A DNA stretch of 64,000 nucleotides. Origin: Astropecten irregularis (lineage: Eukaryota > Echinodermata > Asteroidea > Paxillosida > Astropectinidae). The notes under the pieces were generated by a model, which was given only the letters and a program-made list of their open reading frames with translations, searched no databases and was not told the DNA's origin. Location: positions 7,254,001 through 7,318,000 of the forward strand of contig OZ020244.1 in assembly GCA_963971285.1 (NCBI GenBank), written 5' to 3'. Below, one piece after another: positions 51,089-64,000 of this stretch (the stretch's first letter is position 1; every line of letters begins with the position of its first letter). A program made the translations under genes and the position numbers.

Positions 51089-51526
51089 CGAGGCATTGAG
51101 CAATGCCATTTTTGTTCTGATAAGGTATAATGCAAAATTCGTTAAGCTAATATCGTCCATAATTATTAATATTCCTTCAGTAAAGTAGGGTAATTTCGCG
51201 GAGTGTTGGCCGACAAGGCATGCAGTTACTGCCTCACGTACGTACACACAGACGTAGTCCCATACATGCATGTACAGGTCAACGATAGTACACGATGACA
51301 CATTATAACACCCCATGAAGGCTGAACAGTGAACACGATTATTATACAGTGTGTATCAAAAAAAAAACGCAACAGGATTTAAATTCAAATTTGTGAAGAT
51401 TGTGTTAGCTTTCCAGCAAAGTGAATAGTATTGAATAGTGAATAGTATTGAATAGTGAATAGTGAATAGTGGAGGAGCTTTGTGATTGGTGCTCACTGGG
51501 GTGTGAGAGGATCCGATGTGTGGAAG
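51089..51526. repeat. 438-bp direct repeat flanking G4 (left copy)
   Basis: From CGAGGCATTGAGCAATGCC to ATCCGATGTGTGGAAG. The same 438 bp, without visible difference, follow the 3' LTR at 60789-61226. Ends in GAATAGT short repeats and a GTGATTGGTGCTCACTGG segment. After it, TTAC precedes the 5' LTR. Confidence 0.95.
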
Positions 51527-51530
51527 TTAC

Positions 51531-51762
51531 TGTAGTATACGTTATCATTATGTTATACTTTAGTATGCGTTATCCTCATTGTTATGCAATAAACCACTGG
51601 GGCGTGACCACGCTTGCGTGGCCATCCGTACAAGTGTTCACGCCCGTCAGTCTCATGTACAGAATCACCGTGTCTACATCGCCTGGTTTTGTGTGTGGAC
51701 TCATCGCAGCAACGCGTGCGGTACCTGCCGCCTGCCAGGTAAGCCAGGCTGCGAATACAACA
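51531..51762 (+). repeat. G4 5' LTR
   Basis: 232 bp with TG...CA ends. An AATAAA signal lies at 51588-51593, and CCAG|GTAAGC, a consensus splice donor, at 51735-51744 near the 3' side. I see no difference from 60557-60788. Confidence 0.96.
51739..51744 (+). promoter_or_regulatory. Putative splice donor in the G4 LTR
   Basis: CCAG|GTAAGC fits the donor consensus closely. Located downstream of the likely transcription start, it would be part of the genomic RNA leader and could feed the acceptors before the TatD ORF. Confidence 0.45.
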
Positions 51763-52379: not shown

Positions 52380-53624
52380 ATGAGCCTAAATATTAACAAC
52401 GCCTCTGTCAAAGAACTCACTACCTTACCAGGGATTGGGATCAAATTTGCGCAAATTATACATTCTGTAAGAGAGAAGAAAGGATTCGTTACAATCGATG
52501 ATTTTCATGATACTCCCGCCTTACAATCCAAATTAAATGAACTCGCAGAGAAAAAACTAATTGATTTGAAATACGCGGATGAACCCGCAATTCATACAAA
52601 AGAGGGCACTGAACAATCGAGCACAAATGAAACTGCCAAGGCAATCACAATGCTTGCAAACCAGATGCAAATGTTCATGAAAATGGTAGAGGTAAACACA
52701 ACAAAGACCATCAATGCCATTCAGGAATTAGGGAACAAATTAGATACCAAAGAATCCTCGAATTCAATCACGGCTTCGTCAGCAGATGAAAATAAATTCC
52801 CGCCATTAAAGCTAACACAAAAAAGCACTGGGGACAAAGTAATTGACGCAACTCTAAAAGCCATAGGAGAAAAGGCTCCACCCTTACCACCCCATATTAC
52901 GAAAACTGAACAAAAGCCGCTCCTTTTCATTCAACAAAAGCCGGTCTTTCCCATTCCTGGGGCTGGTCTTCCAAACATTCCAACGCCAGTGCAGGGCAGC
53001 GCGAACAATCAAATCCCACCCTTACAACCCGAACAAAGCACAGGAGTAACGTCAACCGCACCCACTTCTACAGCTCAACCTCAGACCAGACAATTTCCCA
53101 GATTAGTACCTTATGATGGGACAGGGGATTTTCATGCCTTCGCCATGAAATTTGAAGTTATGGCCGAGTGCTGTCAATGGGATGAAAATACCAAACTTTT
53201 GCAACTAGTTGGTGCATTAACAGGTAAAGCATTGGATTGTTACGCATGGCAAGAACCTCAAACCATGCGTAACTATCAACAAACCAAACAGCAACTAATG
53301 AAAATGTTTGGTAAAATCCACGATCCAATCGTACAACGAGCCGAACTTTCTTCTCTCCGCCAGCGGGAAGAAGAGTCCCTACTCGAATTTGGACAACGTG
53401 TAAGACAAATAACCACGCGGGCCTACCACACAGCTAGTCCAGAGATTTTTGAAATGATTGCTAGGGAAGCATTTTTAAGGGGGTGTGCCGATGTAGATGC
53501 AGCAGAATTAGCATTTTACCGGGATCCCAAAACGCTTAATGAAGCAATCCAATTTACACAAACAGCCCAGCATAATCACAGACTGCTGTCGCGATCTAGT
53601 AGACCGAGAATTCGACATGTATAA
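52380..53624 (+). CDS. G4 Gag (HhH motif and capsid)
   Basis: 414 codons. Residues 1-60 (INNASVKELTTLPGIGIKFA then a second helix) form a ComEA-type helix-hairpin-helix, a non-specific DNA-binding motif that is unusual at the start of Gag. Residues 85-120 are helical (MLANQMQMFMKMVEV); 150-240 are Pro-rich. Residues 240-400 are the capsid of gypsy type (LVPYDGTGDFHAFAMKFEVM, LREFG-like LLEFGQRVRQ). The frame stops at TAA 53622-53624 and stays open on the far side. Gag forms the particle. Confidence 0.85.
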   Translation: MSLNINNASVKELTTLPGIGIKFAQIIHSVREKKGFVTIDDFHDTPALQSKLNELAEKKLIDLKYADEPAIHTKEGTEQSSTNETAKAITMLANQMQMFMKMVEVNTTKTINAIQELGNKLDTKESSNSITASSADENKFPPLKLTQKSTGDKVIDATLKAIGEKAPPLPPHITKTEQKPLLFIQQKPVFPIPGAGLPNIPTPVQGSANNQIPPLQPEQSTGVTSTAPTSTAQPQTRQFPRLVPYDGTGDFHAFAMKFEVMAECCQWDENTKLLQLVGALTGKALDCYAWQEPQTMRNYQQTKQQLMKMFGKIHDPIVQRAELSSLRQREEESLLEFGQRVRQITTRAYHTASPEIFEMIAREAFLRGCADVDAAELAFYRDPKTLNEAIQFTQTAQHNHRLLSRSSRPRIRHV

Positions 53625-54218
53625 TTTAATGAACATGTTGATACTGGACCCCCAACAGTAAAACAAGTTCAAGTCAGGCAGACTGGAACTGACCAGATCG
53701 ACATTTGCTTGGACTGGTCAGAAGTCAATCAAAATATGCGTAATTTGTTGTCCCATCTTAAACGTCTTGAGTCTGAAACCACATCAGCAAGTAGGTCCAG
53801 CGCGACAGGTCGCGAGCCTCGGTCGCGTACGCTCCAACAGCGTCAGGATGATTCACCATGCCGAATTGGTCCCAGCACACCCACACCAAAGCCAAGCATC
53901 TCACCTAATCGAGCTCCGTTAACACATCGCAGTCCCTCGCCACTTAGGACAACACCTTATCGTAGCCAACCACCTCCGGCATCCCCCTCTCGACAAATGT
54001 GCTTTAAGTGCAGCCAAGCAGGGCATCTTGCAAGGGAATGTCCCAATAGTTCACCACAGTTTTCCCCCTCTCGACAAACGTGCTTTAAGTGCAGTCAAGC
54101 AGGGCATTTTGCAAGGGAATGCCCCAATAGTACATCACAGTTTCCCACCACTACCAACCCCAATCGTCGTTCCCCGTCTCCTACTTACAGAACCCAAACA
54201 CTACCTTTAAACAACTAG
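53625..54218 (+). CDS. G4 nucleocapsid, continues Gag frame after TAA
   Basis: Same reading frame as Gag. A linker with a coiled helix (MRNLLSHLKRLESE), then Ser/Arg/Pro-rich sequence and two near-identical CCHC knuckles (CFKCSQAGHLARECPN and CFKCSQAGHFARECPN), duplicated with their spacer, which bind RNA. Ends at TAG 54216, four bases after the slip site. It is reached only by readthrough of TAA 53622, by reinitiation, or in copies that lack that stop. Confidence 0.82.
   Translation, partial: FNEHVDTGPPTVKQVQVRQTGTDQIDICLDWSEVNQNMRNLLSHLKRLESETTSASRSSATGREPRSRTLQQRQDDSPCRIGPSTPTPKPSISPNRAPLTHRSPSPLRTTPYRSQPPPASPSRQMCFKCSQAGHLARECPNSSPQFSPSRQTCFKCSQAGHFARECPNSTSQFPTTTNPNRRSPSPTYRTQTLPLNN
54206..54212 (+). 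promoter_or_regulatory. Canonical -1 ribosomal slippery heptamer T TTA AAC
   Basis: Sits in the X XXY YYZ register of the Gag frame (CCT TTA AAC AAC TAG), one codon before the stop. A -1 shift here leads exactly into the protease frame, which is open through 54629. TTTAAAC is a well-known retroviral-type slip site. I did not fold the downstream region for a pseudoknot. Confidence 0.7.
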
Positions 54219-54631
54219 AGACCGGTTGTACTGGCCATCAGCCGGTCAAAGGTAACTCCAATGGCCAAGCACAAAATAGGTACTCTCAAGATCACTCTCA
54301 GGACAAGTTGCGTGAAATTCACTTTTCTACCAACCCGGGCGTGAGTTTAGTTATTCCTATCCGAGTTCAAGGGATTCACACAGTGGCCGTAGTCGACACT
54401 GCAGCACAACTCTCCCTTATAAATCAGAACTTGTGGGAGCAAATCAAACGACGTCCTAAACCCACCGAGCAAGTGTTGCTCCGGGGAGCGGAGAAATGCA
54501 GTAATATGATTGCCCAAAAAATTCCTCAATTAGAGTTAGCAATAGGTGGCCAGTTTTATATTTGGGATTTGTTCTTAGCACCCATAGAAGACACGGCCAT
54601 CATTGGGTTAGATTTTCTTAATTATCAATAA
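54213..54631 (+). CDS. G4 aspartic protease
   Basis: In the -1 frame. A polar linker (HQPVKGNSNGQAQNRYSQDH) is followed by the retropepsin fold: the active-site motif reads VAVVDTAAQLSLI (Asp-Thr-Ala, a normal variant of DSG/DTG) and the C-terminal hydrophobic-hydrophobic-Gly motif reads IIGLDFL. It ends at TAA 54629-54631. The RT frame opens before that stop in a third register. It processes Gag-Pol. Confidence 0.82.
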
Positions 54632-54638
54632 GAAAATC

Positions 54639-56642
54639 GTGGTACCCCCAAACACTGCTGTTAGAGCTACAGCTGAACTCTATGGGGATAAAGAAAAGAC
54701 GTACCTCATCCACGGTCCAGAGCGTGATCATAAGGAACTCCTTATTCCGTACATAGTGGTTTCACTAAAAAATGCAGACCCATGTGTAAAAACAGTGCCA
54801 ATTCTGATGCGAAACGATACCGACCGATACATACACTTAGGGAGGGGCCACAATATAGGTAGAGCAGAGGAAATTCACTCCGTTGTTCTAGATGACCAGT
54901 CAAGCCCTTTGAAAGAAGATCAAATCATAAATAAAGCCGAAACCCCGTCCCCACAAACAGACACAGAGACCGGCAGCTGTTGGACTCGGTGTGAAATTCA
55001 GGTTAGACAGGTTACCAAATTACCCTCCCATATTGTAGATCTCTGGACGAGATCTTGTGTAAATTTGTCTCCAAGGCAAGCCAGTACTTTAGCTTCTACG
55101 TTAGCGAAGTATGCTGACGTGTTCTCTAAAAATGATATGGACCTCGGGAAATTTTCAGAAATCAAACACCCCATTCACACTGGTGATGCGCCTCCCATTA
55201 GACAGAAAATGAGAAGGACACCATTAGGATTCGAGAAAGAAGAAAAGGCACATTTAGATACGCTTCTAGAAGCCGGGGTTATAACACCATCTAACTCAGG
55301 ATGGGCGTCCCCTCCAGTCCTAGTAAGAAAGAAGGATGGCAAAGTTCGTTATTGTATAGATTACAGAGCACTCAACCAGTTAACAACCAAAGACGCTTTC
55401 CCATTACCAAACATTGACGAATGTTTAGATATCTTAGAAGGGACTGAGTTTTTCAGTACGTTGGACATGTGCAGTGGATATCATCAAATCGAACTAGTAG
55501 AAGAAGATAGACATAAGACCGCATTTACAACCAAATACGGTCTCTTTGAATACCAACGCATGCCCTTTGGCTTATGCAATTCCCCTGCCACGTTCCAACG
55601 TGCTATGACACTGATCCTTAAAGGACTTACCAGCACAGAGACTCTAGCGTATCTTGACGATATTATTATTCTAGGGCAAAACTTTGAAGACTCAATGCGA
55701 AACCTTATCAAAGTACTTAAAAGGTTCCGGGAACACAACCTAAAATTGAAAGCGAAAAAATGTAACCTGTTTCAACGTGAGGTACTGTTCTTGGGAAAGC
55801 TAGTGAGCAAACATGGGATTACTCCTAACCCAGAAAGCGTGTCTGCTGTCCAGAACTGGCCCACACCAACATCGAAAAAGGAAGTACAAACATTCCTAGG
55901 CCTTGTAAATTACCATCGGTCACATATCAGACACCTGGCTGAATTGGCCCAGCCCTTGTATGAGCTGTCTCAGAAGCACACAGCATTTATCTGGAGGGAA
56001 AAGCACCAACAAGCTTTTAACCAATTGAAATCTGCACTTACCTCGGCTCCTGTTCTCTCATTCCCTAGAAATAATGACGAAATATTCGTCCTAGACACAG
56101 ATGCATCCGACACTGCGATAGGAGCGGAACTTATTCAAATACAAGACGGTATTGAAAAGGTCATTAGCTATGCAAGTTATACACTAACTCCCTCACAGCG
56201 CAAGTACTGCACCACACGAAAGGAACTTTTAGCACTTGTCCGTTTTACCCGTCAGTTTCGGCATTATCTGCTTGGAAGGAAGTTTTTTGTTCGGACAGAT
56301 CACAGTAGCTTAGCCTGGTTAATGAATTTCAAACACCTTTCAGGAATGCTAGCAAGGTGGATGGAGGAACTAAGTCAGTACGACATGGTTGTCCTACACC
56401 GGAAGGGACTTATGCATACGAACGCTGACGCACTTTCACGAATACCAGCCAATGTTCCTTCCTGCGATTGCTATACAGCGGGCTGTAATATCAGGGACCT
56501 TCCTTGTGGTGGTTGCCGATTTTGCGCTCGCGTACACTCCCAATGGGAACAATTTGAAAATGATGTTGATGATGTTCTCCCCCTTGCAGTCCGCCAAATA
56601 AGTACATGTGCAGCGAATGTGAACAGACCCCCACAGAGCTAA
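54639..56642 (+). CDS. G4 reverse transcriptase and RNase H
   Basis: 667 codons, uninterrupted. RT: RQKMRRTPLGF, VLVRKKDGKVRYCIDYR, FFSTLDMCSGYHQ (first Asp), the YLDDIIIL active site and LFLGKLVSKHG. Then connection domain and RNase H: VLDTDASDTAIGAEL, TTRKELLALVRF, VRTDHSSLAWL and MHTNADALSRIP, with the catalytic D-E-D-D set visible. A Cys-rich tail (CDCYTAGCNIRDLPCGGCRF) links to integrase. The start is shown at the first GTG; the true protein is a fusion product. Converts genomic RNA to DNA. Confidence 0.93.
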   Translation: MVPPNTAVRATAELYGDKEKTYLIHGPERDHKELLIPYIVVSLKNADPCVKTVPILMRNDTDRYIHLGRGHNIGRAEEIHSVVLDDQSSPLKEDQIINKAETPSPQTDTETGSCWTRCEIQVRQVTKLPSHIVDLWTRSCVNLSPRQASTLASTLAKYADVFSKNDMDLGKFSEIKHPIHTGDAPPIRQKMRRTPLGFEKEEKAHLDTLLEAGVITPSNSGWASPPVLVRKKDGKVRYCIDYRALNQLTTKDAFPLPNIDECLDILEGTEFFSTLDMCSGYHQIELVEEDRHKTAFTTKYGLFEYQRMPFGLCNSPATFQRAMTLILKGLTSTETLAYLDDIIILGQNFEDSMRNLIKVLKRFREHNLKLKAKKCNLFQREVLFLGKLVSKHGITPNPESVSAVQNWPTPTSKKEVQTFLGLVNYHRSHIRHLAELAQPLYELSQKHTAFIWREKHQQAFNQLKSALTSAPVLSFPRNNDEIFVLDTDASDTAIGAELIQIQDGIEKVISYASYTLTPSQRKYCTTRKELLALVRFTRQFRHYLLGRKFFVRTDHSSLAWLMNFKHLSGMLARWMEELSQYDMVVLHRKGLMHTNADALSRIPANVPSCDCYTAGCNIRDLPCGGCRFCARVHSQWEQFENDVDDVLPLAVRQISTCAANVNRPPQS

Positions 56643-58201
56643 AAAACAGAAAGTCCGACACTGACGACCGGCATCCGCCGGATGTCGGGGTCGCCTCACT
56701 GTTTACTAAATACACCTCTGTCCAATTAAGATCGGCTCAGATGGAAGACGACGACCTAAAACATCCACTGCAGTGGATTGAAAACTCATATGCCCCTGGG
56801 CAACGTGAAATTCAACTCAGTTCCCCCACCGTTAAATATCTTTGGTGCAATTTACCGCTCTTACGTGTAGAAAACGGGACTCTGTATTACAAATGGGAAG
56901 AAGAACCATTTTCCAGATTACTTTTTGTTGTCCCCTCTAAACTCAAACGGGAGGTCATGAGTCTTTGCCATGAGGCTAAACTAGCTGGGCACCCCGGAAT
57001 AAATAAAACTTTGCAAAAGGTTCGACAATCCGCTTTCTGGTATGGTATGGCAGGTGATGTCTCCCTTTATGTCAAATCATGTAAGGAGTGTAATGTATAC
57101 AAAAAACCATCTCGGAAAGCTAGGGCCGAAATGTCCTTGTATCACGCAGGAGCACCACTCGAACGCATTCATCTAGATGTACTAGGCCCGTTTACTCCCT
57201 CGGAAACTGATAATAAATACATTCTGATGCTTATATGCCAGTTCACAAAATGGATCGAAGCATACCCCCTCCCTGATCAAAAAGCCGAAAGAATAGCTAG
57301 AACTGTTGTTGATAATTTCATTTCACGGTTTGGGTGTCCCCTACAAATCCACACTGACCAAGGCGCCAGTTTTACAAGTTCGCTTTTCCAAGCAGTTTGT
57401 GACGTGCTAGATATAGCCAAGACACGTACAACGCCGTACCATCCTAGTTCCAATGGTCAAGTGGAACGGTCCAACCGCACTATTTTACAGATAATGAGAT
57501 GTTCCCTGAAGGGAAACAACAAAAGATGGGATGAAGACCTCCCCATCATTACTGGTGCTATTCGTGCCCTGCCTAACCGTACAACGGGTCTCACTCCAAA
57601 TTTAATGATGTTGGGAAGGGAGGTAAGGCAACCTCTCGATCTGGTCTTTGACATTAAACCCACTATTAGCACAGAAGGTGACAAACCTTGCGATTACGTG
57701 TCAAAGCTACAGGAAAGGTTGACTGAAGTCCACTCCCTGGCAAGGAAAACGGTCGGGAGTTCACAGAATTATCAGAAAAAGTACTATGACCATTCTACGA
57801 ATAAAAAAAAGTATGGGGAAGGAGATGTCGTATACAAGTTGAACATGGCTCACAAAACTGGCCATTCAAGGAAACTGCAACCGATTTGGCAAGGTCCCTT
57901 CCTTATCACCGAGGTGCTCTCTCCTCAGCTTTACCGTATCTGTGGTAAGAAAACGTGTACTGTGGTTCACCATGATCTCATCAAAAGATGCGAGGATAGG
58001 GAGTTGCCATTTTGGATGCGCAGACAACGCAGCAAATTTTTAAGTATCGAAGCACCACAGGAGGAAGATAAATCCACAAACTTGGGGATTGAATCATTAT
58101 TCAACCCTGACCGAGATTACCAGACTACCCAAACTGTCTCCACCAGAAGCGGGAGAGTCAGTAAACCCCCCTCCAAGCTAAGCGACTATCACTTGTATTA
58201 A
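56606..58201 (+). CDS. G4 integrase
   Basis: Overlaps the RT frame by 37 bp in the -1 register. Zinc module HEAKLAGHPG...CKECNVY (HHCC). The catalytic core has HLDVLGPF (Asp), IHTDQGASFTS (Asp) and NGQVERSNRTI (Glu). Then a GPY/F-like C-terminal barrel (GDVVYKLN..., IWQGPFLITEVL) and a Ser/Arg-rich end (STRSGRVSKPPSKL). Full length for the family. It inserts element DNA into the genome. How it is fused to RT (programmed shift or indel) is not settled. Confidence 0.92.
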   Translation: MCSECEQTPTELKNRKSDTDDRHPPDVGVASLFTKYTSVQLRSAQMEDDDLKHPLQWIENSYAPGQREIQLSSPTVKYLWCNLPLLRVENGTLYYKWEEEPFSRLLFVVPSKLKREVMSLCHEAKLAGHPGINKTLQKVRQSAFWYGMAGDVSLYVKSCKECNVYKKPSRKARAEMSLYHAGAPLERIHLDVLGPFTPSETDNKYILMLICQFTKWIEAYPLPDQKAERIARTVVDNFISRFGCPLQIHTDQGASFTSSLFQAVCDVLDIAKTRTTPYHPSSNGQVERSNRTILQIMRCSLKGNNKRWDEDLPIITGAIRALPNRTTGLTPNLMMLGREVRQPLDLVFDIKPTISTEGDKPCDYVSKLQERLTEVHSLARKTVGSSQNYQKKYYDHSTNKKKYGEGDVVYKLNMAHKTGHSRKLQPIWQGPFLITEVLSPQLYRICGKKTCTVVHHDLIKRCEDRELPFWMRRQRSKFLSIEAPQEEDKSTNLGIESLFNPDRDYQTTQTVSTRSGRVSKPPSKLSDYHLY

Positions 58202-58378: not shown

Positions 58379-59920
58379 ATGGAGGAAGCAGAATTCGTCC
58401 CAGATTATACGGAATCTACCGATGAGGAGCAACTTCCTTCGTTAGAGGTAGCCTCGCCTCCGGTTGCCAGTGACGAAAAAGTGGACGCTTTGAGACTAAC
58501 TACCCAACCAAATCTGCAAGCATCACGACTATCAGATCTGTCCTGTATCACGGACATTCCGGAACTGGAGGCTGTTTCAATATCGCTCTCTTTCCCCAAA
58601 CAATCAACACCCCAGGAAAAGCGGCAGGGCCCAACCCGTAGGCGAAATCAAATATGCCCCCAACCCGGTTGCAGTCACAAAACACACAAACTGAAGCGAC
58701 ATGTTGTCAGTAGGCATGTTTGTGATACCACCTGGTGGTTCCTCTACCCCCTCGTTGCTTGCTGGAAGTGCCGCCGATGGGAGATAGCAGCCCACGTAAA
58801 TTCCCATGGTCCGCTCCTCTTGGAACACCATCTCCCAGAATTGGCATCTCTTGTTGATACCTTCGTAGAGTATATCTGCGAGCGCCTTGGCTTACGATGC
58901 ACCCCCGATTTACTGAATTTCGTTGCCCGGCATCAGTTGGGCGATGAGTATTCGGTATTTACGGCCGATGAGACCAACGTATGGGATGCCTACGATGAGT
59001 ATGTAGGGCTGCCCGCACTACCAGAGCGAAATCTGAAATTCCCAAAACGCATTTCGTCCATACTCCACTGGAGAACCCTACAGCAACTCTTAATTCGTGC
59101 TCACTCCCCAGTGAAAGGAAACTACGCGGATTCTCACTGTCACTTAGATCGGCTCTTCCTTGCTTCCCATCATTCGGGACGTCTCAGCGATTTTCACGTT
59201 CGTAAGGGAATCGATACTCAAGGGTTTAAAGGGTGTGTTGCTGTATTTTGTGATATTAGCACTCTACGTGACGAGGAGAGAATAAAAGAGCTAATATCCG
59301 ACGAGAATGTCTATGGCGCTATTGGTTTCCATCCTAAAAATGCTCAAAATTATAACTCAGAAGCAGAACAAGCAATAAAGCGCCTCCTTGATCATCCGAA
59401 AGTTTGCGCCTTGGGTGAAATAGGCTTAGATTATTCACGAGGTCATGGTCGACACAAGACATGCCAGCAGTCTGTCTTCCGGAAACTGTTAAGAATGGCC
59501 GCTGACATGAATCTACCAGTAGTGATCCATTGTAGAGAGGCCGAGGAGGACTGTTTGAGAATCACATCTGAATCCCTCCCAAGACCGCACAAGATCCACC
59601 TCCATTGCTACATGAATGACTGGGATGGAGCCAAGATATGGTGTAAAATGTTCCCAAATTTATGTCTGGGACTTACAAATGTCATCACCTGGGAAAGCAA
59701 TGCAGCAGCGAGCGTAGCTCACCACATCCCCCTCGACAAGCTCCTCCTCGAAACGGATGCTCCTTATTTCCCCCCAAAGACAAGCCAGGCTATCCACAGC
59801 GTTCCAACGATGGCGATACATGTGGCAGAAAAAGTTGCACAAATTCGCGGAATTACGGAAGACGAAGTGTTGTGCCAAACACTAAAGAATACAGAGAGAG
59901 TTTATGAGATAAAGTTTTAA
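58379..59920 (+). CDS. Zinc-finger/TatD-family metallonuclease ORF in G4
   Basis: 513 codons from ATG 58379 (the frame is open from 58313). Residues 1-80 are acidic; 93-115 hold a C-x4-C...H-x4-H finger (CPQPGCSHKTHKLKRHVVSRH) and 128-145 a C-x2-C...H-x3-H segment. Residues 250-513 are a complete TatD domain: HxH at 253-255 (SHCHLD), Glu347 (GEIGLDY), His384 (VIHCREA), His409 (HLHCY), Asp460 (LETDAPYF), all known metal ligands. TatD proteins are Mg-dependent DNases, with RNA activity reported for some animal paralogues. Extra ORFs in this place of LTR elements are usually env-like; a nuclease is unusual. Role inferred, not known. Confidence 0.88.
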   Translation: MEEAEFVPDYTESTDEEQLPSLEVASPPVASDEKVDALRLTTQPNLQASRLSDLSCITDIPELEAVSISLSFPKQSTPQEKRQGPTRRRNQICPQPGCSHKTHKLKRHVVSRHVCDTTWWFLYPLVACWKCRRWEIAAHVNSHGPLLLEHHLPELASLVDTFVEYICERLGLRCTPDLLNFVARHQLGDEYSVFTADETNVWDAYDEYVGLPALPERNLKFPKRISSILHWRTLQQLLIRAHSPVKGNYADSHCHLDRLFLASHHSGRLSDFHVRKGIDTQGFKGCVAVFCDISTLRDEERIKELISDENVYGAIGFHPKNAQNYNSEAEQAIKRLLDHPKVCALGEIGLDYSRGHGRHKTCQQSVFRKLLRMAADMNLPVVIHCREAEEDCLRITSESLPRPHKIHLHCYMNDWDGAKIWCKMFPNLCLGLTNVITWESNAAASVAHHIPLDKLLLETDAPYFPPKTSQAIHSVPTMAIHVAEKVAQIRGITEDEVLCQTLKNTERVYEIKF

Positions 59921-59948: not shown

Positions 59949-60165
59949 TATGCTGTTCACTTTATTGTAAGAAAGAGTAAGAAGTCTGAGTCGAGAAACT
60001 GAATGCCCTTTATGTAATATATAAGTTAAATGAACAGCATGAGAAGAAAAAAATGTTGAAAATGCTGTTCACTTTATTGTAAGGAAGAGTAAGAAGTCTG
60101 AGTCGAGAAACTGAATGCCCTTTATGTAATATATAAGTTAGATGAACAGCATGAGAAGAAAAAAA
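59949..60165 (+). repeat. G4 3' UTR: 112-bp unit duplicated, each a hairpin
   Basis: Two copies starting ATGCTGTTCACTTTATTGTA (59950 and 60062) and ending TGAACAGCATGAGAAG. ATGCTGTTCA and TGAACAGCAT are exact inverses, so each unit can fold into a stem-loop. Confidence 0.9.
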
Positions 60166-60556
60166 ATATGAATAAAACTCATCTTTGACAAACAATTTGA
60201 AGTAAAACGCTTTTCAGTGGTTTGCATCAGTTAAGGTTATGGAAATAGTTTTTGTTAAGGAAGAAAATTATCCTTGGAAGTACGTGTAATTTGAAGAAAA
60301 CTTATTATTAAGAGTTATGAGAAAGGAACTTACTGTGATCTTTAAAATTTAAAGGATGAAACCGAAATGCATCTTCTGTAGATTGCGATTGATTATGGTA
60401 GCCACTCCTTAGTATGTTGCCGATTTAAGTGTAATGAACTGACATGTTTACACAAATCATAATCAGCAAATGACTATTTTTTTGACTAATTTTTTCGTGC
60501 TTATAAAAAAAGCTGTAAATCGCCCGCCAACCCCTTAAAGAAATAACGGGGAGGTA
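60166..60556 (+). other. G4 3' UTR and polypurine tract
   Basis: AT-rich, without ORF. The polypurine tract is GGGGAGG at 60548-60554, two bases before the 3' LTR, and primes plus-strand synthesis. Confidence 0.65.
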
Positions 60557-60788
60557 TGTAGTATACGTTATCATTATGTTATACTTTAGTATGCGTTATC
60601 CTCATTGTTATGCAATAAACCACTGGGGCGTGACCACGCTTGCGTGGCCATCCGTACAAGTGTTCACGCCCGTCAGTCTCATGTACAGAATCACCGTGTC
60701 TACATCGCCTGGTTTTGTGTGTGGACTCATCGCAGCAACGCGTGCGGTACCTGCCGCCTGCCAGGTAAGCCAGGCTGCGAATACAACA
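60557..60788 (+). repeat. G4 3' LTR
   Basis: 232 bp, no visible difference from the 5' LTR. Followed at once by the right-hand 438-bp repeat. Confidence 0.96.
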
Positions 60789-61226
60789 CGAGGCATTGAG
60801 CAATGCCATTTTTGTTCTGATAAGGTATAATGCAAAATTCGTTAAGCTAATATCGTCCATAATTATTAATATTCCTTCAGTAAAGTAGGGTAATTTCGCG
60901 GAGTGTTGGCCGACAAGGCATGCAGTTACTGCCTCACGTACGTACACACAGACGTAGTCCCATACATGCATGTACAGGTCAACGATAGTACACGATGACA
61001 CATTATAACACCCCATGAAGGCTGAACAGTGAACACGATTATTATACAGTGTGTATCAAAAAAAAAACGCAACAGGATTTAAATTCAAATTTGTGAAGAT
61101 TGTGTTAGCTTTCCAGCAAAGTGAATAGTATTGAATAGTGAATAGTATTGAATAGTGAATAGTGAATAGTGGAGGAGCTTTGTGATTGGTGCTCACTGGG
61201 GTGTGAGAGGATCCGATGTGTGGAAG
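60789..61226. repeat. 438-bp direct repeat flanking G4 (right copy)
   Basis: Equal to 51089-51526. It continues on the right into GGCTTTTCTGATTGGTGCTC and the Penelope remnant, so this copy seems to be in its original context. Confidence 0.95.
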
Positions 61227-62760: not shown

Positions 62761-63610
62761 CCGCTTTCTATTTTACAAATAAGGTACCGGATATTCTGTT
62801 AAGAAACACAAAAGACCATTGGGTGGTCGAAACAATGTTCCACACCCGAACTTGGTGTGACATGTTTACAAGTGTCATACTCAATTGTGTTATCAAACAT
62901 CTACGAGAACTGAGAAATTGGGCAAAATCCTGGCATCCGGTGTCTGCTTAATCGAGTAATTAATAGAACAAACAGCATCTCCACACTTTTCGTCAGACTA
63001 ATTGCCAGTCGCGTATAAATATACCCCAGTACGATCGGCTGCCACCAGTCATCGACCAAACTTTGCCACTGTGCACAAGTCTATAGCTGCCATGTCTCAA
63101 GACGAATACACTTGATGTTGGGTCTCCGGACCCATCTCTGTCTCAACTTGAAGAGTAGTATATAAAATGGGGGTTCTGGGCCACTTCGCCCGAGCACCAG
63201 GCGCACCCGGGCTTGTCGCGCACCAGGCACGTTATCACGGTAAAAAGGTCACTCCATTGCGCGCGCCGCGTTGGTGATTGGCACCAGCCTTGGTGTTAAT
63301 CATTAACATCTACCCCCCACGCTCGCCCGGGCATGCGGCTAATTATAACGGTCCAAAGGCCACTCTATAGCCTGTATTAGAGTGACCTTCATGTATTCAT
63401 GCATAAAGGTGTAGTACCTTTTGTACAGCATTTCAACACGGCGTCATAGATGGAAAGTACGTTAGGCACTCGCCTCTCACCAATGTGGACTGGGTTCAAT
63501 CCTCGGGCCTGTTCTTTTTCCCTCCACAAAAATCAACACTTGACGCGATGCGGGAACCCGCTTTGTCGGAGTAATTATCCAGATCTAGATCCAGAGAACA
63601 ACGTTCATGC
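62761..63610. other. Non-coding DNA with a possible core promoter
   Basis: GCGTATAAATATACC at 63010-63024 is a good TATA box. About 70 bp downstream GCCATGTCTCAAGACG starts a 7-codon frame ending in TGA. No further exon is evident before the satellite. The rest holds CG-rich segments (GGCGCACCCGGGC, 63200). Confidence 0.3.
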
Positions 63611-64000
63611 ATCTAAGGTACACAATAGCATAGCAACGACGTTCATACAAGGAACGCGGTATCTAAGGTACACAATAGCATAGCAACGACGTTCATACAA
63701 GGAACGCGGTATCTAAGGTACACAATTGCATAGCAACGACGTTCATACAAGGAATGCGGTATCTAAGGTACACAATAGCATAGCAACGACGTTCATACAA
63801 GGAACGCGGTATCTAAGGTACACAATAGCATAGCAACGACGTTCATACAAGGAATGCGATATCTAAGGTACACAATAGCATAGCAACGACGTTCATACAA
63901 GGAACGCGGTATCTAAGGTACACAATAGCATAGCAACGACGTTCATACAAGGAATGCGGTATCTAAGGTACACAATAGCATAGCAACAACGTTCATACAA
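63611..64000. repeat. 50-bp satellite array running off the window
   Basis: Eight starts of ATCTAAGGTACACAATAGC at 63611, 63661, 63711, 63761, 63811, 63861, 63911 and 63961, exactly 50 bp apart. Variants are a single T for C in GGAACGCGGT, one GAT end and a few others. The array continues past 64000. Confidence 0.97.

Follow-up and report, generated by a model that had tools for sequence, protein, structure and literature searches.

A Ty3/gypsy retrotransposon lineage of Astropecten irregularis with a zinc-finger-like module and a TatD nuclease domain in its third open reading frame

In env-bearing Ty3/gypsy retrotransposons of the errantivirus type, a third open reading frame (ORF) lies between the integrase and the 3' long terminal repeat (LTR). 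At one locus of Astropecten irregularis, the frame found in this slot encodes a TatD-type nuclease domain. How did such a domain come to lie inside a retrotransposon, and what may it do there? We analyzed a window of 64,000 nucleotides around this locus (assembly GCA_963971285.1, contig OZ020244.1, positions 7,254,001 to 7,318,000, forward strand), together with related loci elsewhere in the genome. Positions given without a locus or contig are those of the window.

A Ty3/gypsy element occupies the last 13 kb of the window, with gag, zinc knuckles, protease, reverse transcriptase (RT)-RNase H and integrase in this order according to Pfam, all enclosed by LTRs (Table 1). Based on the domain order and the Pfam models, the element is assigned to Ty3/gypsy (Metaviridae). 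The LTRs have TG..CA ends in the window and also in the other copies read. The primer-binding-site-like sequence TGGCGACGAGG was found 3' of the left LTR of the window copy, and TGGCGACG follows the left LTR in the C10, C17, C28 and C30 copies as well. At the site of the polypurine-tract-like sequence, other families display purine-rich runs, namely GGGGAGG (C17 and C30), GGGGGCG (C10) and AGGGAGAG (C28). The third ORF (ORF3) starts 177 bp past the end of the integrase frame (58201) and ends 636 bp short of the right LTR. No 4-bp target duplication was found at the window copy, which has TTAC on the left versus CGAG on the right. The element is surrounded by a perfect 438-bp direct repeat (positions 51089-51526 are identical to 60789-61226), possibly through recombination between two insertions or through an assembly fault. 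The open frame of RT has 676 codons in the window copy, versus 1220, 1357 and 1394 codons in three near-identical copies, and the RT and integrase frames of the window copy differ. Therefore, the pol of this copy is probably broken, while its TatD ORF stays open.

Three further features of the element and its surroundings were observed. Gag begins with a helix-hairpin-helix domain (HHH_3), detected with an E value of 1.5e-9 in the window and of 4.4e-10 to 3.1e-6 in all four other copies tested; in the one paper found on this subject, the term stands for another protein. The 3' untranslated part contains two tandem copies of 111 bp (59950-60172), each starting with ATGCTGTTCA and ending near TGAACAGCAT, and each could form a predicted hairpin. 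Beyond the element, the window ends in an array with a 50-bp period (63511-64000), the later copies of which are about 98% alike and the first two 60% and 79%.

Table 1. Features of the Ty3/gypsy element in the window, with the positions of the Gag HHH_3 domain in other copies
Feature	Positions	Strand	Remarks
Left LTR	51531..51762	+	232 bp, TGTAGT...CAACA; 100% identity to 60557-60788
Primer-binding-site-like sequence TGGCGACGAGGATAAA	51764..51779	+	Adjoins left LTR
gag ORF, N-terminal helix-hairpin-helix (HHH_3)	52380..53624	+	PF12836, E 1.5e-9; Retrotrans_gag PF03732, E 4.2e-6
Gag HHH_3 domain	Window 52380-52560; L015:149-400; L024:7801-8040 (-); L019:3362-3499; L010:3-155 (-)		
ORF with two CCHC zinc knuckles (CFKCSQAGHLARECP, CFKCSQAGHFARECP)	53709..54218	+	Motif by eye
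Aspartic protease	54308..54631	+	RVP PF00077, E 5.5e-5, and related models
Reverse transcriptase and RNase H	54639..56642	+	PF00078, E 3e-32; PF17917, E 2.5e-32
Integrase	56606..58201	+	PF17921, E 3.2e-19; PF00665, E 3.6e-14; frame differs from that of RT in the window copy
ORF3: acidic N terminus, zinc-finger module (residues ~85-245), TatD domain (residues ~250-511)	58379..59920	+	
Two C2H2-like motifs (residues 93-143)	58655..58807	+	Kept in most loci covering them
TatD nuclease domain, Class II (HxH)	59129..59905	+	PF01026, residues 251-509; placed identically by the genome search
Polypurine-tract-like sequence AAAGAAATAACGGGGAGGTA	60537..60556	+	Adjoins right LTR on its 5' side
Right LTR	60557..60788	+	Same sequence as left LTR

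A sequence-only reading of this locus had described ORF3 as a complete frame of 513 codons between the integrase and the 3' LTR, with zinc-finger-like motifs and a TatD domain that retains its metal ligands. Both descriptions were borne out. The frame has 513 codons and no internal stop, and residues 251-509 match PF01026 (TatD_DNase) with an E value of 2.8e-59 over profile positions 2-252 of 253. All six metal ligands are present (H253, H255, E347, H384, H409 and D460). The HxH motif, formed by H253 and H255 within DSHCHLD, places the domain in Class II as this class is defined in PMC10085689. The N terminus has about 245 residues, and the zinc-finger module within it about 160. Read from the translation, its two motifs are C93-x4-C98-x9-H108-x4-H113 and C128-x2-C131-x7-H139-x3-H143. 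For this module, Pfam gave no family at E values up to 5, and the comparison with solved structures gave nothing significant (E values of 0.4 and 0.64). The slot of ORF3 is shared with the third ORF of env-bearing Ty3/gypsy elements and is also the place of the retroviral envelope gene, but ORF3 is without an envelope domain: TatD was the sole Pfam family above the cut-off in the window ORF3, and among seven aligned ORF3s no family other than TatD scored better than an E value of 0.019. An AlphaFold2 model gave blocks with a pLDDT of 78-97 over most of the TatD domain from residue 281, except for residues 461-480, and a pLDDT of 46-73 for residues 251-280, which hold the HxH motif. The front half was mostly below 50; the zinc-finger module had no relatives in the alignment, and the model is unreliable there. 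With this model, Foldseek ranked E. coli YcfH (1yix) first, and its top 17 rows were all TatD-family or TatD-like; the matches included 6l25, 1xwy and 2y1h. Taken together, we have high confidence in this identification of ORF3.

To see whether the window copy is an isolated case, the genome (475.7 Mb, 168 contigs) was searched for the TatD family. The 34 matches could be grouped into 23 loci, with the limit that a six-frame search can miss short exons. Two of these loci are host genes in several exons. In 15 others, comprising the window and 14 fetched loci, TatD is preceded on the same strand by a related integrase. The other six (L020, L026, L029, L032, L034 and L035) showed no pol match within the fetched 10 kb; the scan of selected ORFs covered L020, L026, L029 and L034 among them. 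Across the 15 integrase-linked loci, the TatD identity ranges from 100% down to 29%, with four near-identical copies (99-100%). Both LTRs were readable in seven copies (the window, C9, C23, C10, C17, C28 and C30), with 98.0-100% identity within each pair. Together with the TG..CA ends, short target duplications as in Ty3/gypsy elements were found: 4-bp direct duplications flank six of the seven copies (ATAT, CTAC, CTAG, ACAG, GTGG and GTTG), the window being the exception. The C10 and C17 copies have ORF3 in the same slot, with only 47-49% identity to that of the window. Based on the LTR pairs and the 4-bp duplications, such divergent families therefore moved recently while carrying ORF3. Thus, other copies and other families carry the frame at the same place, as the sequence-only reading implied, and an intact ORF for an enzyme has been kept between the integrase and the 3' LTR in this lineage.

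Not all copies are intact. The TatD frame is damaged in C28 and C30, and in the C30 pair (L030 and L031) an internal deletion takes out the region from E347 to H409. These two loci lie 33 kb apart, share the same deletion and have lost most of RT. L030 has LTRs that are 99.5% identical and a 4-bp duplication; the pair may have arisen by segmental duplication or, alternatively, by movement in trans. The gag region of the C9 copy contains a piece of the TatD end and 3' untranslated region in inverted orientation (L009:9192-9382). The TatD ORF at L020 (C1:7580300-7590299), which has no pol, is accompanied nearby by a frame that weakly matches DNA_pol_B_2 (E value of 5.6e-5, under the Pfam cut-off), and this locus is perhaps another large mobile element.

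On the host side, four of four AAA codons of the mitochondrial COX1 align with Asn of the solved chain 8ugh_4A, and six AGA codons are read through; judged from this alignment, the reading is that of the echinoderm/flatworm mitochondrial code, which makes an echinoderm the probable host. A COX1 frame without internal TGA codons was found on another contig (G000:C131:32162-33484), as if it came from a bacterium in the sample.

Next, we asked how ORF3 is distributed among related retrotransposons. An RT search within the same genome, in which 66 of 1583 candidates were scored, listed 69 matches; these were reduced to 66 places, which are related by descent. All 11 places with at least 52% RT identity had ORF3 within 10 kb (nine with TatD and two with the zinc-finger part only), versus none of the 55 places below 52%, where neither TatD nor the zinc-finger part was found. 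In an RT tree of 15 rows, made from 9 of the 11 close places and 6 of the 55 others, the nine ORF3-bearing rows (eight with TatD and one with the zinc-finger part only) were separated from the six ORF3-less rows with a branch support of 100/100. By RT, the ORF3-bearing elements belong to a single group. Within it, the zinc-finger-only row sits among the TatD elements, beside C20 (96/96), and therefore represents a secondary loss of TatD. Six places in the genome match the N-terminal part of ORF3 alone, and two of them were read. L039 (with the RT at C1:10866711) has an open RT and integrase, and its ORF stops where TatD would start, soon after HWRT; no TatD fragment was found behind it. L040 (with the RT at C1:10402669) is a damaged element, likewise with the zinc-finger part and no TatD. 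The identities of RT and TatD are correlated over 15 pairs from six elements (Pearson 0.95, largely owed to C1:8677; Spearman 0.82). The deepest element, C1:8677, shares the C-x4-C...H of the first finger and the HWR motif before TatD, but not the second finger, a pattern that favors a single uptake of the fused ORF. Probably, a TATDN2-type nuclease entered the lineage on one occasion in the distant past and was retained, and the TatD half was lost from one branch.

Proteins of the TATDN2 clade have an extended N-terminal region, often with a nuclear localization signal. In A. irregularis, the host TATDN2 (L027) comes in four or more pieces, its first frame counts 1340 codons, and about 1,200 codons precede TatD; the zinc-finger module of ORF3 had no match in this preceding region. 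The other host gene (L033) is a TatD in several pieces, nearest to E. coli TatD among solved structures. We therefore compared element and host domains in a TatD tree of 18 rows, which holds one host TATDN2 and no TATDN1, TATDN3 or TATDN2 of another animal. Five element TatDs and the host TATDN2 fell on one side of a branch with a support of 98/99, and the other host TatD together with 11 rows from bacteria or viral contigs on the other. The elements thus group with TATDN2, represented by this one host gene, rather than with TatD, YcfH or YjjV, which supports the capture of a host nuclease suggested by the sequence-only reading. This suggestion needs one amendment, since the capture was probably made by an ancestor of the lineage and not by the window element. 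The element group by itself had a support of 68/43, and C1:8677 is on a very long branch, so a second acquisition at C1:8677 is conceivable; in a second tree from a part of about 160 residues, the host TATDN2 was not separated from the elements. A single origin of the element TatDs, with its exact rooting, is nevertheless likely from these alignments. Intact element ORF3s are single frames versus the pieces of the host gene, which fits a capture via spliced RNA. In such a scenario, the spliced coding sequence of a TATDN2-type gene would have entered the ancestor of the lineage a single time, in fusion with the zinc-finger module.

Two other origins were weighed against this one. Acquisition of the TatD domain from a bacterium could account for the best solved-structure matches, which are bacterial and of the YcfH type; however, no TATDN2 structure is among these matches, and the host TATDN2 shows the same preference. 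The best 80 of 403 bacterial relatives are only 28-35% identical, and, together with the grouping of the element rows with the host TATDN2, this makes a bacterial source very improbable. Viral contigs were also scanned: the query P0001 gave no relatives, the ORF3 alignment gave two (TatD domain only) and the zinc-finger alignment gave none. In phage records, the TatD domain had matches in 30, and among the 20 listed none spans 80% of the query. Alternatively, the TatD loci could be ordinary host TATDN2 paralogues next to chance element insertions. The host does have a TATDN2 gene, six TatD loci are without a pol match, and a TATDN2 gene model is oddly placed inside the Hox cluster of the giant squid, according to PMC6962438. 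Chance does not predict, however, that integrase, ORF3 and LTR follow in this order within LTRs and target duplications, on separate contigs and in families as diverged as C10 and C17. Nor does it predict single-frame ORF3s when the host gene is in pieces, or ORF3 at 11 of 11 close RT places versus 0 of 55 others among the 66 scored. For loci flanked by LTRs on both sides this reading is refuted, and overall we consider it still more improbable than a bacterial source.

If a TATDN2-type domain was captured, has it been kept for its activity? Ligands were counted over the non-host rows covering each residue, with damaged copies included and the window left out; three of these rows are near-copies of the window, and the E347-H409 deletion of the C30 pair was not scored as a change. 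On this basis, H253 was kept in 14 of 15 rows, H255 in 15 of 15, E347 in 13 of 14, H384 in 13 of 13, H409 in 16 of 16 and D460 in 18 of 19. The zinc-motif residues were kept in 13-15 of 15-16 rows. A ligand was changed in three damaged loci, L022 (E347), L025 (D460) and L026 (H253). All six ligands are present in four distinct families with an intact ORF (alignment A1, seven rows, four of them near-copies). The ligands are mostly conserved among copies, in agreement with the earlier expectation. Selection was gauged by these residue counts and by codon-position counts instead of dN/dS. Between the window and C10, codon positions 1, 2 and 3 of TatD differ at fractions of 0.42, 0.32 and 0.65, and those of RT at 0.32, 0.20 and 0.64; for a 158-codon piece of TatD compared between the window and C20, the fractions are 0.25, 0.23 and 0.59. 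Differences are much more frequent at the third position than at the other two, and amino-acid replacements between families have therefore been restrained. The ORF3s of the four near-identical copies show seven amino-acid and three silent changes, an approximately neutral ratio from too few copies for a selection test; these counts give no sign of constraint since the last moves.

The best explanation, to which we assign a probability of about 70%, is that the product of the third ORF in this Ty3/gypsy lineage combines a zinc-finger protein with a Class II TATDN2-type nuclease and acts on the element's own intermediates. In the proposed mechanism, the ORF3 protein would be made separately from Gag-Pol. 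A CAG after pyrimidines was seen by eye shortly before the ATG of ORF3 in three of six upstream sequences (C10, C17 and C1:8677) and was absent in the window, C30 and L039; where present, it is compatible with a candidate splice acceptor. The zinc fingers would bind nucleic acid, and the TatD domain would serve as a two-metal 3'-5' exonuclease and/or an abasic-site endonuclease, most likely in the nucleus. Its substrates could be the replication intermediates of the element, such as the ends of reverse transcripts, damaged cDNA or RNA:DNA hybrids. ORF3 quite probably encodes a working enzyme; the choice of any one substrate is much more doubtful. TatD would aid transposition but not be an absolute requirement, given that the TatD half was dropped in one branch, and it appears dispensable at least sometimes because of the zinc-finger-only elements (L039 and L040) and the TatD deletion in C30.

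Alternatively, the same losses could mean that the TatD half simply rides along as a passenger, a domain captured long ago that does not harm the element and is attached to a useful zinc-finger half that serves, for example, in RNA export or targeting. In L039, where RT and integrase are open, ORF3 consists of the zinc-finger part alone, and the same holds for the damaged L040; the C30 copies have the internal TatD deletion; and the near-identical copies show no purifying signal. There is also a precedent in CERV, the accessory nuclear protein of Cer1, which is reported to work in RNA export (PMC10309623). A passenger is expected to decay, yet all six ligands persist in four distinct families with an intact ORF and the codon-position bias of TatD is like that of RT, so we regard this possibility as unlikely.

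Echinoderms have many AID/APOBEC-like deaminases, and ORF3 could be a means of counter-defense. When cytosines in the cDNA are deaminated and the uracils removed, an AP endonuclease could clear the resulting abasic sites; an exonuclease could instead strip blocked 3' ends. AP-endonuclease activity is reported for human TATDN1 and TATDN3 and for all three E. coli TatD paralogues (PMC10085689), but the two human enzymes assayed there are TATDN1 and TATDN3. This specific role is about as unlikely as that of a passenger. The broader proposal, in which the lineage carries a zinc-finger-guided repair or end-processing TatD against a deaminase or base-excision defense and also seeds many 'TATDN2-like' genes of marine invertebrates, is less likely again. 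A nuclease acting on the element's own intermediates thus stays the preferred reading of ORF3.

These results have consequences for gene annotation. The sequence-only reading had suggested that many 'TATDN2-like' gene models in marine invertebrates are copies of this element. Inside the present genome this is supported, with 15 of 23 loci linked to an integrase, two being host genes and six showing no pol match. For a wider spread, the giant squid model, listed in its Hox cluster beside names such as pogo transposable element with KRAB (PMC6962438), is a lead and nothing more. Where 'TATDN2' genes are counted in invertebrate genomes, the numbers may in fact reflect transposon copies. The history of ORF3 is unusually readable, with one RT group that has it, neighbors that do not and one branch minus half of it. 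Since the enzyme family has a known chemistry, the role of third ORFs in retrotransposons becomes testable.

How does ORF3 compare with known systems? TatD enzymes use two metals; their reported activities are those of a 3'-exonuclease, mostly against single strands, and of an AP endonuclease against double strands, and TATDN2 is placed in their HxH Class II (PMC10085689). For zebrafish Tatdn2, a function in the DNA repair of germ cells has been reported, and R-loops are also treated in that paper (PMC12709183). Animal TATDN2 proteins and ORF3 share the HxH Class II TatD domain (PMC10085689, PMC12709183), and the host copy groups with the elements; unlike the host gene, with its pieces and its long region ahead of TatD, ORF3 is a single frame with an N terminus of its own. 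CERV of Cer1 resembles ORF3 as an accessory LTR-retrotransposon protein with a zinc finger, reported to be of the C4 type and nuclear; it differs in being made by splicing, and a nuclease domain is not mentioned in the available part of the paper (PMC10309623). In the literature on TatD or TATDN with transposons, a TatD ORF in a retroelement was not found, and a prior deposition in a repeat database is possible. The closest parallel is provided by Juno and Vesta, LTR retrotransposons of bdelloid rotifers with a DEDDy exonuclease as ORF3, which in the authors' view may have an auxiliary function during the replication cycle (PMC5408684). As in A. irregularis, their third ORF is an intact nuclease that is family specific and missing from the earliest branches (PMC5408684). 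In contrast, the rotifer enzyme is DEDDy (RNase D-like) and not TatD, is nearer to ORFs of Athena elements than to host genes and, by the authors' account, was gained two or more times (PMC5408684). Enzymatic third ORFs are thus already known, and the arrangement described here is of the same kind with a different enzyme; with it, a host-type DNA-processing nuclease joins the few enzymes known to have been taken in and kept by LTR retrotransposons.
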